From Terriglobia bacterium (GTDB lineage Bacteria > Acidobacteriota > Terriglobia > JAIQFV01): DNA of 64,000 bases. Below, piece by piece: positions 51,766 through 60,078 of this stretch (position 1 is its first letter; each line of letters starts with the position of its first letter). Under the pieces are notes generated by a model, which had not been told where the DNA came from, did not search any database, and saw only the letters and a program-made list of their open reading frames with translations. The DNA lies in assembly GCA_020073085.1 (NCBI GenBank), contig JAIQFV010000012.1, forward strand, positions 62,001 to 126,000. Reading direction: 5' to 3'. A program made the position numbers and the translations under genes.

Positions 51766-54648
51766 ATGGAAATCTCGCTTGATCTCGACCGACTTATTCA
51801 GCAGGTGGAAAAACCCGTCCGCTACCTGGGGGGCGAGTGGAACCAGGTGGTCAAGGACCATGCCGCCGTTGACGTGGCCATGGCCCTCTGTTTTCCCGAT
51901 ATTTACGAAATCGCCATGTCGCATATGGGAGTTCGCATCCTCTACTCCCTGTTGAACCGGCGACCGGACGTGGCCTTCGAGCGATGTTTTACCCCCTGGG
52001 TGGACATGATCGAGAAGATGCAGCAGCACCACCTGCCGCTCACTTCCCTGGAAACCCGCACGCCGCTCGATCGCTTCGACATCGTCGGTTTTTCTCTCCA
52101 GTATGAAATGTCGTTCACGAATATCCTGCTGATGCTGGAACTGGGCGGCATTCCGCTCCGGAGTGTCGACCGCGACCTGAGTTTTCCGTTAGTGATTGCC
52201 GGAGGCCCGGTTGCCCTCTCGCCGGAACCGATCGCGGACTTTATCGACGCCTTCGTTATTGGAGACGGTGAAGAAACGCTCGGCGGCCTGATCGATTGTG
52301 TCAAAGACTGGAAGCGCTCCGGGGACGGGATGAATGCTCATGCGGACAAATCCCAGCTGCTGCGCGAGCTTGCCAAGCGGCCGGGCATCTATGTCCCTGC
52401 CCTTTACGACACGGCGGTTCATCCGCTGCACGGCTTGCAGGTCGTGGTGCCGCGCGAGTCCGGGCCCACCGTCAAGCGGCCCACCGGATATGACCCCGTC
52501 TTCTTTCACGGGGTCCTTAATCGAACGCAGCCGGCCGGGGGGCTTGCACCTCCCTTCCCGGTCGTCCGGCAATACGTTGAGGACCTGTCCGCTTATCCTT
52601 TTCCGACCGATCTCATCGTGCCGTTCGGTGAGATTGTGCATGACCGTATCTCCATGGAAATCGCCCGCGGGTGTCTCGATGGCTGTCGTTTCTGCCAGGC
52701 CGGTTACACGTACCGGCCTTTGCGGGAGCGCTCGATCGATGACATTGTCCGAACCATTGTCAAGGCCAGCGAACAAACGGGATTCGACGAAGCGACCATT
52801 GCTTCTCTCTCCACGGCCGACTACTCCTGCTTGAATCCGTTGATGGAAAAATTGATGGATGAGCTGGAGCACCGCAAGATTGCATTGTCGCTCACCTCCA
52901 TGCGGGCCGATTCGATCACTCCCGAACTCACCTCGCAGATGAAGCGCGTGCGTAAGACGGGCCTCACTCTGGCTCCCGAGGCAGGCACCCAGCGCATGCG
53001 CGATATTATCAACAAGAACATCACTGAGGAGTCGGTGCTCAAGAGCGCCACGGCCGCCTTTGACGCGGGATGGGACCTCATCAAGCTTTATTTCATGATT
53101 GGCCTTCCCATGGAAACCGGAGACGATGTCCGGGGAATTTTCGAACTGGGGAAAAAAGTCAGGGATCTCAGCACGCGGTCGAGGCGGTCGGTCAACATCA
53201 ATCTTTCCGCTTCGTCCTTCATTCCGAAACCGCACACCCCCTTTCAATGGTTCGCCTTTTGTGATTTGGAGGAGATCAAAGAGAAGCAGCGCCTGTTGCG
53301 CTCGTGGTGCAAGTCGGCCCGGATCAACTTCAAGCACCACCATCCCGAGACTTCGCAAATGGAGTGCGTCCTGTCGCGCGGGGATCGTCGCCTGGGACGC
53401 GTCATCGAGCGGGCGTATCGAAGCGGATGTCGCTTTGACGGCTGGGACGACCAGTTCCGATATGATTTATGGGTCCAGGCGTTTGAACAGGAGGGTGTGG
53501 ATTTTCGACAATACCTGAGGGCGCTCCCGGTCTTCGATTGCGCCGAGTGGCGGGGATCTACGGAGCCGGAACGGAACGACTGTACCGCCTATATCAAGTC
53601 GCTCTCGACGATCCGCGTGAAACCGCTGGACGCCCCCGTCGACTGGACGCCGCTGCCCTGGGATCACCTCGACGACCGAGTGGACAAGAAGTTCATCGTC
53701 TGGGACTTGAAACGCAGTCTCCAGGCCCGGGTCTCGCCCACCTGCGGCCCGGACTTGTGCTATAATTGCGGGTTGGAGTGCGAATTTGATGGGACGGGCC
53801 CTGGAGTCATTCAATCCGTGGAGCTGAAGAAGCCCGGAATTCAGGGGAACGGTCACGGCCAGAATCACGATCGGGATTTGGAAATGGAGCGTGAAATCCC
53901 CGCCGCGCCGGTTCAGGGTCCGGGAGCCGGGCGTTACCGTGCCTCATTTACGAAAGTGGGTCGATCCAAGTTTCTCTCGCACCTCGATCTGATGCGGCTG
54001 GTCCAGCGCGCCTTTCGTCGTGCGGGGATTCCATTGAAGTACTCTCAAGGCTTCCATCCGCAGCCGGTCGTTTCGTTTGGCCCCGCCCTGTCTGTCGGGA
54101 TCGAGGGCACAGCCGAGCTGGTGGATTTCGAAGCCATGGTCGGGTTGGAGGAAAAATCGTTTCTTTCGGTCATCAACTCCGTGCTCCCTGACGGAGTCCG
54201 ATTCACCCGCTTAAAACCAGTTGACCTGCACGCTCCTGCGCCATCAGCCATCGTCAAGGTAGCACGATATCAAGTGGAACTGGCCACGGACAGGATCCTG
54301 ACGTCGGACAGGTCACAGGACGGGTCCCAGGGAGATCTGAGTTACGATGGGGTGACGCGGCAGTTGGATGCGTTTCTTGCCGCCAAGTCTTTCGTGATCC
54401 AGCGAAAAAAGAAGGACCGGATCGTCCCGACGGATCTCCGGTCGTTCGTAAGGAAAATCGAGGTCAAGGAATCCTCCGGTCGCCTGCTGCTCGAGCTCGA
54501 AATCGAGATGGGCGAGCGCGGTTCGGTCAGGCCTCAAGAAGTTCTAAAATCCATTTTGAACATTTCAGACGAGAACTTTCACGCAATCAAGCGCGACGCG
54601 CTTTTCGCCGAGCGAAATGGAACTTACTCTCCAGCTTTTTCCAGCTGA
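51766..54648 (+). CDS. radical SAM protein fused to DUF2344 (TIGR03960/TIGR03936 type)
   Basis: 960 residues from the ATG at 51766, with GAAGG about eight bases upstream. An N-terminal B12-binding-like region is followed by a radical SAM barrel (C303-x3-C307-x2-C310, in ARGCLDGCRFCQAGYTYRP), a Cys-rich knuckle (CGPDLCYNCGLEC, about 660) and from about 720 a DUF2344 domain (KVGRSKFLSHLDLMRLVQRA). In many bacteria the two parts are encoded separately. Adjacent RNase E/G is a well-known neighbour for DUF2344 genes. The substrate is unknown, probably an RNA or ribosome modification. Confidence 0.93.
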   Translation: MEISLDLDRLIQQVEKPVRYLGGEWNQVVKDHAAVDVAMALCFPDIYEIAMSHMGVRILYSLLNRRPDVAFERCFTPWVDMIEKMQQHHLPLTSLETRTPLDRFDIVGFSLQYEMSFTNILLMLELGGIPLRSVDRDLSFPLVIAGGPVALSPEPIADFIDAFVIGDGEETLGGLIDCVKDWKRSGDGMNAHADKSQLLRELAKRPGIYVPALYDTAVHPLHGLQVVVPRESGPTVKRPTGYDPVFFHGVLNRTQPAGGLAPPFPVVRQYVEDLSAYPFPTDLIVPFGEIVHDRISMEIARGCLDGCRFCQAGYTYRPLRERSIDDIVRTIVKASEQTGFDEATIASLSTADYSCLNPLMEKLMDELEHRKIALSLTSMRADSITPELTSQMKRVRKTGLTLAPEAGTQRMRDIINKNITEESVLKSATAAFDAGWDLIKLYFMIGLPMETGDDVRGIFELGKKVRDLSTRSRRSVNINLSASSFIPKPHTPFQWFAFCDLEEIKEKQRLLRSWCKSARINFKHHHPETSQMECVLSRGDRRLGRVIERAYRSGCRFDGWDDQFRYDLWVQAFEQEGVDFRQYLRALPVFDCAEWRGSTEPERNDCTAYIKSLSTIRVKPLDAPVDWTPLPWDHLDDRVDKKFIVWDLKRSLQARVSPTCGPDLCYNCGLECEFDGTGPGVIQSVELKKPGIQGNGHGQNHDRDLEMEREIPAAPVQGPGAGRYRASFTKVGRSKFLSHLDLMRLVQRAFRRAGIPLKYSQGFHPQPVVSFGPALSVGIEGTAELVDFEAMVGLEEKSFLSVINSVLPDGVRFTRLKPVDLHAPAPSAIVKVARYQVELATDRILTSDRSQDGSQGDLSYDGVTRQLDAFLAAKSFVIQRKKKDRIVPTDLRSFVRKIEVKESSGRLLLELEIEMGERGSVRPQEVLKSILNISDENFHAIKRDALFAERNGTYSPAFSS

Positions 54649-55031: not shown

Positions 55032-58000
55032 ATGTCAAAGGAAATGATTATCAACACGTCTCCCCAAGAGACGAAGGTCGCGATACTCGAAGAAGACCAA
55101 TTGGTCGAAGTTCACATCGAACGGAGCCTCGAACAAGGCCTGGTTGGGTCCATCTATAAAGGCCGTGTCACTAAAGTCCTCCCCGGCATGCAATCCGCGT
55201 TCGTGAATGTGGGCCTGGATCGCGACGCCTTTCTTTACGTCTCCGATTTCTTTGAAGATGCTGAGGAATACGATTCCATCGTCGCCACGGTGGAAGACAA
55301 GATTGAAAAGCTTGAATCCACTCCGGGTGAGGCGGCCCTCCATGCCCCCTCCCCGATGGTTATCGAAATCCCCACCCGGCTTGACCCTTCTGAAACCCAA
55401 GGCCCCGCCGCGGCCGTTACCACAGCTGGAAAGGCGGTCCCCGAGAAGGTTCCTCCTATTGCTCAAGCGGCCGTAATGGCGCAACCGACGCCGGTCTCTG
55501 AGAAGGCGGCCGAGGCGGAGGCGAGACAGGATCTGGAGAAGGGTGTTCCCGCGGCGTCCGGGCAGGGATCTGCCGAATCCGCCCAAAAATCCCAAGGTGA
55601 ATTTGACCGTCAGTCGCGGGGCCGGTACGGCCGCCGCCGCGGCCGCCGCCGCCCATGGGAACGGCGAAAGGAAGAACCACCCCGGAGTGTTCCGCAGTCC
55701 CCGGCCCAACCACAGGCCCCGATCCCGACCGCGATGGTCCCTCCGCCCGCCCCCGCGCTGGTGAGTACCTTGACCCCTCTTCCCGGAGAATCCCTGTCAA
55801 AATTCCAGCAATCCGCGACAGTGTCCGGTGAAGAACAGCCACCAGCTCACGAATTCCTTTCCCCCGACGCTGTTTATCTTCCCGAGGCTGATCTTCCCGA
55901 GACAGCGGCATCCTCGCCGCCCGGCATGGCGGAAACTCCCCCATTGCCCCCGGTTGAAACCGCCCCTGCGGAAACTCAAGGAGAGGTGACACCTGCTCCA
56001 TCGAGTCAGGCCGGAGGGATGTCGTGGGTTCAAGAAGCGCCCCTGATCCCCAATCAACCCGAGACGTTCGAACAGGTGGAGAAGATCTTGTCCATCCTGG
56101 ATGTCCCGGTCGAACCGGGTCAATCCCCGACACGATTGGAACCAGCCGCGCCACGGGCCACCCCGTTGGAAAAGGATTCCGTCATCCCTCTCGATGTCAT
56201 TGTCCCGGAAATCCCTTCGCCCGTGAGCCCTGCGGTTGCCGAAGCAGCCACCCCGGCCAGTGAAACCGTTGAAATAACTGAGGAGCCAATTTCGTTGCAG
56301 CTGGATGAATCAGGGGCCTCGGCCGATGTTCCCCTGGTCGCAAGATTCTCCAGCACGGACTCCGCCGCAATGGAATCAGGAGCCCAGGTCGCCAGATCGG
56401 AACCGCCAGAAGCGATCAACGCATGGCAAGATACCGTTGAACCTGTTTCTCTTGAATCAGCGGACTCGAGGGTTTCAGAAAGAACCCCGGAGGAAAAGGC
56501 GGAGCCCATAACAGAATCGAAAGGGACCGAGACCGCATTAGAGATTCCGGCTTCCGAAGCACACGAAGGTTCGATTCCCGCGGAAGAACAGGCAACCCCA
56601 GTTCAAGGAGTGTCCAGGGAGCAGGAGACGCCGCCGAGTATTCCGCCCGCTTCCGAACCACCCGTGCCTGCGGGGGCTGACGAGCAAGCCGCGGTCACGC
56701 GTGGGACGACGATCTCAGAAGAATACCCCCTTCCAAGGCCTGAGTCAGAACCGGGCGAAAGCCTCGCCGCGACAATGCTCCACCGCGAATCCACGGAACA
56801 ATCCGACGAACCGCGTTGGCCGGTGTCTGAACAATCCATCGTCAAGGAAGCCAGGACTGTGGAAACGGCTGATCGGGAACCGGTGCCTGCGGTGCCGATC
56901 TCCGAAATCCCTCCGGCGGCCGGATTGACTCTCCAGATGGCCGGTCCGGTGACACCACTGCCGGAAGTGCCTCCCGCCGCTGTCCCTGTAATCGCAGAGG
57001 GACCGGCCTCATCGACCCCCGAAACCTTCAAGCCGAAGTTCAAAGAAGAGTCCAAGAGGGAAAGAACTGGGCCGCGCTTTGAAAAATCCTCAGCTTCGAA
57101 ATTCTCTCCCGCCGCCCGGCGATTCGAAGCGAAAGCGGAGAAGGCCGCTGCTCAACTGGCTCTCCAGCCCGAGGTCTATGGGCCACCGACGCCTTACGAA
57201 TACATGACGGATGGAGAAAAAGCCGAGTACAACGCCCGTCGCGCCCAAGAAAAGACCTCGGCCAAAATCCTCGATTCCTCGCGCAAGTTAGCGGCGCCTC
57301 AGCCCCGGGATTACGCCTTCCAGCGGGGTCGGCGTGGGCGGCGAGGCCGCAACAAACGGTTTGCCGATCATGAGACTCCGTCCGAACAACCTGCACCCCG
57401 GGAGGAGAAGCGGCCGGCGTCCCGCCTGCTCATTGCCGAGTTGTTGAGAGAAGGCCAGGAAATTCTGGTCCAGATCGCCAAGGAGCCGCTCGGAAAGAAA
57501 GGGGCGCGCATTACTTCACATATTGCGCTGCCGGGTCGCTATCTGGTGTACATGCCTACGGTGGATCACATCGGTGTTTCACGAAAGATCGGTAGTGACG
57601 AAGAACGCCGCCGGCTGAAACGCATCATTAATGAATTCGGGGAAGGCCTTCCGGGAGGCTTTATCGTCCGCACGGCGGGCGAGGGCCGGACCGAAGAAGA
57701 ATTGAAGCAGGACATTCGTTTTCTTGCCAACACGTGGGCCGATATCCGTTCCCGCGCGGAGAAGCGGGCTGCCCCGGCGCTGCTTCATCGCGATCTCGGC
57801 GTGCTGGAACGAATTCTGCGCGATCAACTTTCATCGGAATTCTCCGCCATCCGTCTCGACACAGAAACCGAGTACGCCAAGGTTCTCGAATTCGTCAACC
57901 AGTTCCAGCCAGCCCTGGTCGGACGCGTCAAGCTGCATTTCAAGGACACTCCCATTTTTGAGGAATACGGCGTCGACCATGAGATCGAGAAGGCCTTGAA

Positions 58001-58625
58001 GCCCAAGGTGTGGCTCAAGTCGGGCGGATATATCGTCATCAACCAGACCGAGGCGATGGTGGCCATTGACGTCAATACCGGCAAGTTCGTGGGCAAGACC
58101 ACGCGGCTCGAAGATACCATCGTGAAGACCAATATCGACGCGGCCAAGGAAGTGGCGCGGCAGATCCGTCTCCGCGACATGGGGGGGATCATCGTCATCG
58201 ACTTCATCGACATGGAGGAGCGCAAGAACCGGCAGAAGGTGATTCAGGCGCTGGAAGAGGCCATGCGGCAAGATCGGGCTCCCTCAAAGATTCTTTCCTT
58301 CAATGATTTCGGGCTCGTGGCCCTGACTCGAAAGCGGGTCAAACAGTCGCTCGAGAAGATTCTCATGCAGCCGTGCGTCTTTTGTCAGGGTCATGGACTG
58401 GTCAAGAGCGTGCAGACCGTGTGCTACGAAATCCAGGCCGAGGCCAAGAAGATGGCCCCTCTGCTCGATGGCCGGGAGATACGGATCCGCGTTCATCCGG
58501 AAGTGGCCCGGGCCTTGAAAACGTCCGAGCAGACCGTCGTCTCAGAAATCGAAAGCCATACCCGGAAAGACGTGATCATCAAAGCCGATCCCCAAACGTT
58601 TCAGGACCAGTTTGAAATCTTTTGA
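55032..58625 (+). CDS. rng: ribonuclease E/G with a ~700-residue insertion in the S1 domain
   Basis: 1197 residues from the ATG at 55032, where AAGGA lies eight bases upstream. The S1 domain begins as usual (GSIYKGRVTKVLPGMQSAFV, residues 40-75), is interrupted from about residue 90 to 797 by an acidic, Pro/Glu/Ala-rich disordered stretch, and resumes at LLREGQEILVQIAKEPLGKK (about 804). Catalytic aspartates are D1013 (MVAIDVNTGK) and D1057 (IIVIDFIDM); the zinc link C1115-V-F-C1118 (CVFCQGHG) is intact. Two Arg-rich patches in the insertion (RYGRRRGRRRPWERR; RGRRGRRGRNKRF) could bind RNA. RNase E/G cleaves RNA endonucleolytically and typically scaffolds a degradosome. It is about 2.4 times the usual length. 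Confidence 0.93.
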   Translation: MSKEMIINTSPQETKVAILEEDQLVEVHIERSLEQGLVGSIYKGRVTKVLPGMQSAFVNVGLDRDAFLYVSDFFEDAEEYDSIVATVEDKIEKLESTPGEAALHAPSPMVIEIPTRLDPSETQGPAAAVTTAGKAVPEKVPPIAQAAVMAQPTPVSEKAAEAEARQDLEKGVPAASGQGSAESAQKSQGEFDRQSRGRYGRRRGRRRPWERRKEEPPRSVPQSPAQPQAPIPTAMVPPPAPALVSTLTPLPGESLSKFQQSATVSGEEQPPAHEFLSPDAVYLPEADLPETAASSPPGMAETPPLPPVETAPAETQGEVTPAPSSQAGGMSWVQEAPLIPNQPETFEQVEKILSILDVPVEPGQSPTRLEPAAPRATPLEKDSVIPLDVIVPEIPSPVSPAVAEAATPASETVEITEEPISLQLDESGASADVPLVARFSSTDSAAMESGAQVARSEPPEAINAWQDTVEPVSLESADSRVSERTPEEKAEPITESKGTETALEIPASEAHEGSIPAEEQATPVQGVSREQETPPSIPPASEPPVPAGADEQAAVTRGTTISEEYPLPRPESEPGESLAATMLHRESTEQSDEPRWPVSEQSIVKEARTVETADREPVPAVPISEIPPAAGLTLQMAGPVTPLPEVPPAAVPVIAEGPASSTPETFKPKFKEESKRERTGPRFEKSSASKFSPAARRFEAKAEKAAAQLALQPEVYGPPTPYEYMTDGEKAEYNARRAQEKTSAKILDSSRKLAAPQPRDYAFQRGRRGRRGRNKRFADHETPSEQPAPREEKRPASRLLIAELLREGQEILVQIAKEPLGKKGARITSHIALPGRYLVYMPTVDHIGVSRKIGSDEERRRLKRIINEFGEGLPGGFIVRTAGEGRTEEELKQDIRFLANTWADIRSRAEKRAAPALLHRDLGVLERILRDQLSSEFSAIRLDTETEYAKVLEFVNQFQPALVGRVKLHFKDTPIFEEYGVDHEIEKALKPKVWLKSGGYIVINQTEAMVAIDVNTGKFVGKTTRLEDTIVKTNIDAAKEVARQIRLRDMGGIIVIDFIDMEERKNRQKVIQALEEAMRQDRAPSKILSFNDFGLVALTRKRVKQSLEKILMQPCVFCQGHGLVKSVQTVCYEIQAEAKKMAPLLDGREIRIRVHPEVARALKTSEQTVVSEIESHTRKDVIIKADPQTFQDQFEIF

Positions 58626-58881: not shown

Positions 58882-60078
58882 ATGAATTTTGAGACCTTCG
58901 AACTGGAGCGATTTCAATCCACATGGGAAAACCAGGTGGATTACAACCTCTCGGAGAGCGGTATCCTGCCGATGTCGGTGCGGGAACTGACACAGCTTGC
59001 TTCGGGGACGGCGCGACGCGAGAAGTCTTCCGACCCTTCGATCGCTCGGTTACTCCAGAAATCACTGGGCTACAGCCAGACGAACGGGACGGTCCCTCTG
59101 CGCCGAAGCGTGGCGGCGCTTTACCCCGGCGCCACCGAAGACAACATCGAAATCACCAATGGCGGCTCCGAGGCGAACTTCATCACGATGTGGCGGGTTG
59201 TTGAGCCGCGCGATGAAGTCGTGGTCATGTTGCCCAATTACATGCAGGTGTGGGGCGTCGCCCGGGCGCTTCGCGCGAAGGTGAAGGCCTGGTGGCTGCG
59301 GCCGGTGGCGACCTCCCCCTCACAACGCGGACCGATTCAGTGGGCGCCGGACCTCGAGCAGCTCAAATCGCTGGTCACGAAGAGGACCAAATTGATCGCC
59401 ATCTGTAATCCCAACAATCCCACTGGGGCCGTGTTAACTCGCGACGCCATGCAATCGATTGTTGACCGGGCGCGGTGGGCGGGAGCGTGGCTTCTCGCCG
59501 ATGAGGTGTACCAGGGTGCCGAACTGGGGGGACCCGTTACACCCTCGTTTTGGACTATAGCCGCCGGCTCAAATGCCCCGTATAGGAAGCTCATCGTCGC
59601 CAACAGCCTCTCCAAGGCGTACGGATTGCCCGGCCTGCGCCTTGGCTGGATGGCGGGTCGGCGGGAGGCCATCGACCAGTCCTAGGCCGCACACGACTAC
59701 ACGACCATCGGTCCGGGCACCTTGAACGACGCGCTGGCCACCGTGGCCCTTTCCACCGCCACACGCCGGGCCATCCTCGAGCGCACGCGAACAATCCTTC
59801 GGGCGCAGTGGCCGATTCTGGAAAAATGGATCGCCGCGCACGACCCTCAATTTGTAGCTGCTCCCCCGCAGGCAGGGGCCATCGCATTGCTCCAATACAG
59901 AATGAAGATAAATTCCACCGAGCTTGCCAACCGGCTCCGAAAAAAGAAAAGCGTCCTGATTGTCCCGGGGGACCATTTCCTGTTGGACCACCATGTTCGA
60001 ATCGGATTCGGTGGACATCCTGGACATCTGAAGGAAGGCTTGAAGCGGTTGTCGGAGATGGTCCTTGGGCTGAATTGA
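58882..60078 (+). pseudogene. class I/II aminotransferase interrupted by an in-frame TAG
   Basis: A single 398-codon frame runs from 58882 to 60078 but has one stop (TAG at 59683-59685). Both sides are one fold-type I PLP protein: N-terminal part with GSEANFITMWRVV, a substrate helix, NPNNPTGAVLTRDAMQSIVD and the PLP lysine in NSLSKAYGLPGLRLGWM; C-terminal half resumes AAHDYTTIGPGTLNDA and ends FGGHPGHLKEGLKRLSEMVL. Homologues commonly have Trp just before this HDYTTI, so TGG to TAG is the likely change. Either an inactive gene, a sequencing error, or amber readthrough. Function, if intact, unknown transaminase. The window cannot decide between these. Confidence 0.85.

Follow-up and report, generated by a model that had tools for sequence, protein, structure and literature searches.

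A gene for an RNase E/G protein in the window, the 64,000-nucleotide stretch of Terriglobia DNA analysed here, encodes an enzyme interrupted within its S1 domain by several hundred residues of low complexity. This raises the questions of whether such a segment is a genuine part of the protein and, if so, what it might contribute to an RNA-cleaving enzyme. To our knowledge, RNA degradosomes are known almost wholly from proteobacteria, Bacillus-like bacteria and cyanobacteria. Acidobacteriota, the phylum to which the Terriglobia belong, are among the dominant bacteria of soil.

The RNase E/G gene and its catalytic core

The gene (55032..58625, forward strand) encodes 1197 amino acids from an ATG start, directly 5' of which a plausible ribosome-binding site lies within GGAAGGAATTCGGCA, and a genome-wide search of the 5.79 Mb genome returned this open reading frame as the single RNase_E_G match. 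Pfam searches matched RNase_E_G (PF10150) at residues 833-1103 with 343 bits and RNase_E_G_Thio at residues 1114-1196, and no other Pfam domain in the protein, insert included. Membership of the Rne/Rng family is indicated by TIGR00757, with 497 bits against a cut-off of 326. Within this family, the core matches RNase G far better (PRK11712, 520 bits) than RNase E (PRK10811, 269 bits) and, like RNase G, it ends with a small domain. Nevertheless, the score of 520 bits lies under the curated RNase G equivalog cut-off of 594 bits, and the 1197-residue protein differs from RNase G proper, which is compact at approximately 490 residues.

In phmmer searches against solved structures, E. coli RNase E (2bx2) aligned at residues 3-73 and resumed at residues 799-1180, and the Caulobacter enzyme (4oxp) was likewise matched. 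Because the alignment to 2bx2 jumps from residue 73 to 799, the S1 domain is split, with one half on either side of the insertion. The first part of the core (residues 1-73; 55032..55250, forward strand) comprises the RNase H-like start and the first half of S1, and the second (57429..58622, forward strand) comprises the rest of S1, the 5' sensor, the DNase I-like catalytic domain, the zinc link and the small C-terminal domain. An earlier note, made from the sequence of this stretch, had claimed that all catalytic and zinc residues remain, and this is borne out: the DNase I-type catalytic residues D1013, N1015 and D1057 are all retained in the alignment to E. coli RNase E, as is R880-T881 of the 5' sensor, and the zinc link is intact as C1115xxC1118, within a CPxCxGxG-like CVFCQGHG at residue 1115. 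The protein is predicted to be an endonuclease of the RNase G type that cuts single-stranded RNA.

Position, composition and predicted disorder of the insert

The insertion occupies residues 74-799 (55251..57428, forward strand), as delimited by profile, and consists of approximately 725 low-complexity residues with 14% Pro, 14% Ala and 13% Glu. Its net charge is -0.059 per residue, and order-promoting residues make up 18% of the insert versus 32% of the core. These values agree with the description in the earlier note of an acidic, Pro-rich segment with two Arg-rich patches, which were located at residues 195-213 and 765-776. The same note had placed the segment at residues 90-797; it is indeed internal, but these limits omit a conserved acidic helix, AEEYDSIVATVEDKIEKL (residues 77-94; 55260..55313, forward strand), predicted at the entry to the insert and identical in a same-genus relative.

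Structure prediction, which the note had proposed as a check, gave an AlphaFold2 model (alignment of 47 rows) with pLDDT mostly <50 over residues 96-800, in keeping with the claim that the S1 domain is split by some 700 disordered residues. The exception was a short, family-specific helix, DGEKAEYNARR (residues 727-737; 57210..57242, forward strand), in the region of which dN/dS was 0.11-0.15 between the window and the same-genus relative. A shorter relative of 813 aa, modelled from 27 rows, gave a similar, mostly disordered picture. Overall confidence was low in both models and the second half of S1 was itself badly modelled, so that the location of the loop is not readable from them. Foldseek searches with the predicted structure recovered RNase E only.

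Conservation and selection among class relatives

The RNase E gene was extracted from 56 loci of relatives in the class Terriglobia (Acidobacteriota) and from further members in a phylum-wide sample, giving a set of 65 inserts from 10 families. All 65 are located at the identical S1 site, with lengths of 253-793 aa (median 434), in proteins of 719-1256 aa. No short-form enzyme, lacking the long insert, was present among the extracted class members. In addition, the class enzymes have no C-terminal extension, with only 0-2 residues past the core model, and the position that the scaffold occupies in RNase E degradosomes is therefore vacant. Some bearers of the insert are isolates, namely Terriglobus albidus DSM 26559, Edaphobacter lichenicola and Granulicella sp. 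S156, in which it lies in one open frame. The genome G324 carries two RNase E genes (L169 and L170) with inserts of 572 and 771 aa, reflecting either a duplication or a mixed bin.

Selection was estimated by comparison of the window gene with that of a same-genus genome (G001). The dN/dS was 0.023 in the first part of the core (residues 1-73), 0.015 in the second part and 0.30 over the whole insert. The value for the insert, set against that for the second core part, indicates translation of the insert and selection on its reading frame. The insert is therefore real and more than chance, as it occurs at the same site in every class relative extracted and its reading frame is under purifying selection. 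The earlier note had allowed for an assembly artefact or for absence from close relatives; neither applies, since independent genomes carry the insert in one open frame and the recommended search of related Acidobacteriota found it throughout the extracted class relatives, in all 10 families. An artefact of assembly, annotation or frameshift, or removal of the segment by splicing as an intein-like element, can thus be ruled out with near certainty, given the open frames in relatives that include isolates and the purifying selection on the protein frame; with respect to an intein, Pfam found no further domain in the insert.

Conserved elements within the insert

Between families the insert is unalignable save for short stretches. 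An alignment of 14 sequences that covered the 10 families left R205, L250, P251, G252, E253, S254, K257 and R770 as its sole invariant positions within the insert. These fall within three elements. The first is an Arg-rich patch, SRGRYGRRRGRRRPWERRK (residues 195-213; 55614..55670, forward strand), with a dN/dS of 0.026. The second, overlooked in the earlier note, is a near-invariant motif, LPGESLSKF (residues 250-258; 55779..55805, forward strand), with the class consensus LPGES[LI][AS]K[YF]; dN/dS in the motif region was 0.039. An acidic Pro/Ala/Glu spacer (residues 259-671; 55806..57044, forward strand) then precedes the second Arg-rich patch, RGRRGRRGRNKR (residues 765-776; 57324..57359, forward strand), which lies just before S1 resumes. 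The spacers around and behind the motif evolve rapidly in comparison, with dN/dS of 0.40-0.43. The patches are 48% Arg and 2% Lys.

A relaxed form of the motif, LPGE[STF][LI]x[KRN], was found in 64 of the 65 Terriglobia inserts (once in 50, twice in 12 and thrice in 2), against an expectation of 0.0015 per set in shuffled inserts, and the remaining insert holds LPGESLSVL and LPGESLSQV. The relaxed motif was absent from all 22 inserts of other classes, and LPGES[LI]xKY is thus specific to Terriglobia within the set examined. Searches of 31 class genomes with the back-translated motif gave mostly one match each, located in RNase E, and a reversed-pattern control gave no match in these genomes. 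Sharing of the motif with other proteins, and hence of a common partner, was considered and rejected, the 31 genomes yielding only scattered single extra matches.

The order of the elements is constant in the class, running from basic patch to motif, long acidic spacer and basic patch. The Arg patch preceding the motif has a median of 10 Arg/Lys per 20 residues, the spacer has a median net charge of -41.5 and is negative in 64/64 class inserts, and the second Arg patch lies approximately 20 residues ahead of the resumption of S1.

Comparison with known RNase E architectures

Insertions of 50-150 aa within S1 are known in alphaproteobacterial and plant RNase E; in Caulobacter the insert lies at the RNA site and is included in the RhlB-binding N-terminal fragment, and the Arabidopsis enzyme is less active once its insert has been deleted (PMC4245959). 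The Terriglobia insert resembles those of Caulobacter crescentus (PDB 4OXP) and plant chloroplast RNE in being located inside S1, charged, predicted to be disordered and variable in sequence. However, at 253-793 aa across the class and approximately 725 aa in the window it falls outside their length range, and LPGES[LI]xKY occurs on the Terriglobia side only in the set examined. Caulobacter RNase E also has a long C-terminal scaffold besides its S1 insert, whereas the Terriglobia enzyme has none.

The likeness to the C-terminal scaffolds of E. coli, Pseudomonas and Caulobacter RNase E lies in a long segment that is disordered (for the insert, by prediction from shallow alignments), with Arg-rich patches, acidic stretches and clade-specific short motifs; there is no sequence relation, and the Terriglobia segment interrupts S1, whereas those scaffolds follow the catalytic domain. 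Short RNase E motifs that differ between clades recruit PNPase or helicase in Pseudomonas, E. coli, Caulobacter and cyanobacteria (PMC11964227). Charge patterning in disordered RNase E scaffolds drives BR-bodies (PMC8573418), the driving feature being alternating charge patches (PMC12691583), and the succession of patch, acidic spacer and patch in the insert has this alternating character. The resemblance to a scaffolding tail drawn in the earlier note therefore stands, extending to all class relatives extracted, but the internal S1 site is not in itself a novelty (PMC4245959). What is new is the size of the insert, the lack of any extension at the C terminus and a motif particular to the class.

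An earlier survey gave the RNase E/G of the Fibrobacteres/Acidobacteria group as 511 aa and forecast, on the basis of size, no degradosome potential (PMC3071783); the Terriglobia enzymes share the phylum but are 719-1256 aa long. This size entry was all that a search of the open literature returned on RNase E in Acidobacteria. The openly accessible papers searched contain no description of a tail-replacing S1 insertion that is up to five times longer than those known and bears a near-invariant, docking-like motif.

Variation across the phylum

The extracted genomes of other classes display four RNase E/G architectures. These are a compact enzyme with a loop of 22-60 aa; an enzyme with an S1 insert of about 100-550 aa; an enzyme with an N-terminal extension of 370-600 aa and no S1 insert (families f42 and f49; L138, L139 and L142); and a deep, separate subfamily with a C-terminal tail of 150-250 aa (L117, L118, L125, L133, L144 and L148). 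Many genomes with the tailed subfamily carry two RNase E/G genes. In the tree set, 37 enzymes have an insert only, 13 a tail only, 16 neither and none both. Mutual exclusion of insert and tail, true in this set, was rejected as a general rule, since the tailed enzymes form one deep subfamily and represent nearly a single event.

On a tree of the core built with a quick method, two changes suffice to account for inserts of at least 100 aa, and the longest inserts belong to Terriglobia and to a sister group with Blastocatellia-type members. The sister-group inserts lack LPGES and contain FERI[VT]D[ED][DE]-like motifs, often repeated (for example, L129, L137, L156 and L272), and FERIxDDE-like sequences are a candidate for a second, Blastocatellia-type, class-specific docking motif. 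The tree suggests one or two episodes of loop growth, followed by the acquisition of class-specific motifs. In the same Blastocatellia-type examples, an [ML]LKDAxxQ element takes the place of LPGES. A further group (L120, L128, L147, L152 and L153) has ILPE-like motifs in the S1 insert, namely ILPETL, ILPEWL, ILPERL, ILPEKF and ILPDDL.

RNase Y, an endonuclease, initiates RNA decay in Bacillus and is functionally a counterpart of RNase E (PMC10989914). In profile searches of the phylum it was over the cut-off in 187/297 genomes, but in only 2/61 of those from Terriglobia, and the window genome gave no match above it; for RNase J and for PNPase, that genome gave a single match each above the family cut-offs. 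A strong RNase Y (E under 1e-213) is retained in G024 and G052, both of family f8, but is missing elsewhere in the class sample. Two class members that retain the enzyme have inserts of 341-358 aa. Within the tree set, RNase Y was absent from 26/28 genomes with inserts of at least 240 aa compared with 5/38 with shorter inserts. A link between a long insert and loss of RNase Y was nevertheless set aside as a lead only, since the tree offers 3 independent contrasts, too few to reach significance.

A putative scaffold within the S1 domain

The reading that we favour, with reasonable though far from complete confidence, is that the insert is a degradosome or condensate scaffold grown within the S1 domain and equipped with class-specific docking motifs. 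An RNase G-type endonuclease would thereby have become an RNase E-type hub through growth of a single S1 loop. The Arg-rich patches of the loop may bind RNA, and the acidic spacer between basic patches would provide an alternation of charge like that which drives condensates of RNase E. LPGES[LI][AS]K[YF] would serve as a short docking motif for a partner, most likely a protein of RNA decay such as PNPase, a DEAD-box helicase or RNase J. RNase E assembles as a tetramer, and four loops would consequently surround the RNA channels, bringing between 4 and 8 docking motifs, together with 8 basic patches, close to the S1 face. With the loops adjoining the RNA-binding face of S1, RNA and partner would be held at the mouth of the active site instead of on a remote tail. 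Against the scaffold, Arg patches and charge patterning are common in many disordered proteins, and the clade-specific motifs could instead serve localisation or turnover of the enzyme and not a degradosome.

An autoregulatory lid is an unlikely alternative, in which acidic stretches would mimic RNA in the S1/RNA channel, with the patches and motif folded back onto the core of the same enzyme or onto an adjacent subunit. In Caulobacter, the RNA site is occupied by the partly helical S1 insert, whose acidic side chains have been proposed as RNA mimics (PMC4245959), and the window insert opens with the conserved acidic helix at residues 77-94; however, the most conserved elements, the motif and the Arg patches, lie 100-700 residues from that helix. 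Fold-back of the motif was sought with AlphaFold and discarded, the motif region being disordered, with no confident structure, in both models and their shallow alignments.

It is less likely still that the insert is a device for membrane or nucleoid localisation with LPGES[LI]xKY as its address tag. The extension of E. coli and Pseudomonas RNase E does contain a membrane-targeting sequence (PMC11964227), but no prominent amphipathic or hydrophobic segment was found in a 30-residue survey of the insert, and the motif is too short and too polar to insert into a membrane. Least probable among these alternatives is a neutral, functionless low-complexity expansion of a tolerant loop. Such an expansion would suit the freely varying length (253-793 aa) and the fast-evolving spacers (dN/dS about 0.4), yet the motif is near-invariant over 10 families, the Arg patches are constrained, the order of elements is constant and no short form occurs among the extracted class members. 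For the motif and patches, neutral expansion is largely refuted.

With the scaffold as the preferred reading, the insert would probably represent a docking platform that has changed its position and serves an RNA-decay complex hitherto undescribed in these bacteria. The finding also suggests that an RNase E scaffold may lie behind, before or inside the catalytic domain. A more specific proposal, which we regard as tentative and somewhat short of an even chance, is that Terriglobia turned a compact enzyme of the RNase G type into their mRNA-decay hub solely by means of the S1-loop scaffold, with LPGES[LI][AS]K[YF] as a new docking motif, a different, FERIxDDE-like motif in the same loop of sister classes, and loss of RNase Y alongside. 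A nine-residue motif at a defined site in culturable species makes the existence and composition of the complex directly testable.

Genomic neighbourhood

Directly upstream of the RNase gene (51766-54645) lies a gene for a fused TIGR03960 B12-binding radical SAM and TIGR03936 protein, which was near the RNase gene in 3/136 of the relatives' loci. A conserved operon partner was accordingly rejected as a functional clue, since neither this radical-SAM gene nor the genes downstream accompany the RNase gene in more than 2-3 of the 136 loci. Downstream, an aminotransferase open reading frame (PRK07324-like; 58882-59685) ends at an in-frame stop (59683-59685), beyond which approximately 120 further aminotransferase-like codons continue in the same frame, consistent with a nonsense mutation, a recoded stop or a sequencing error.
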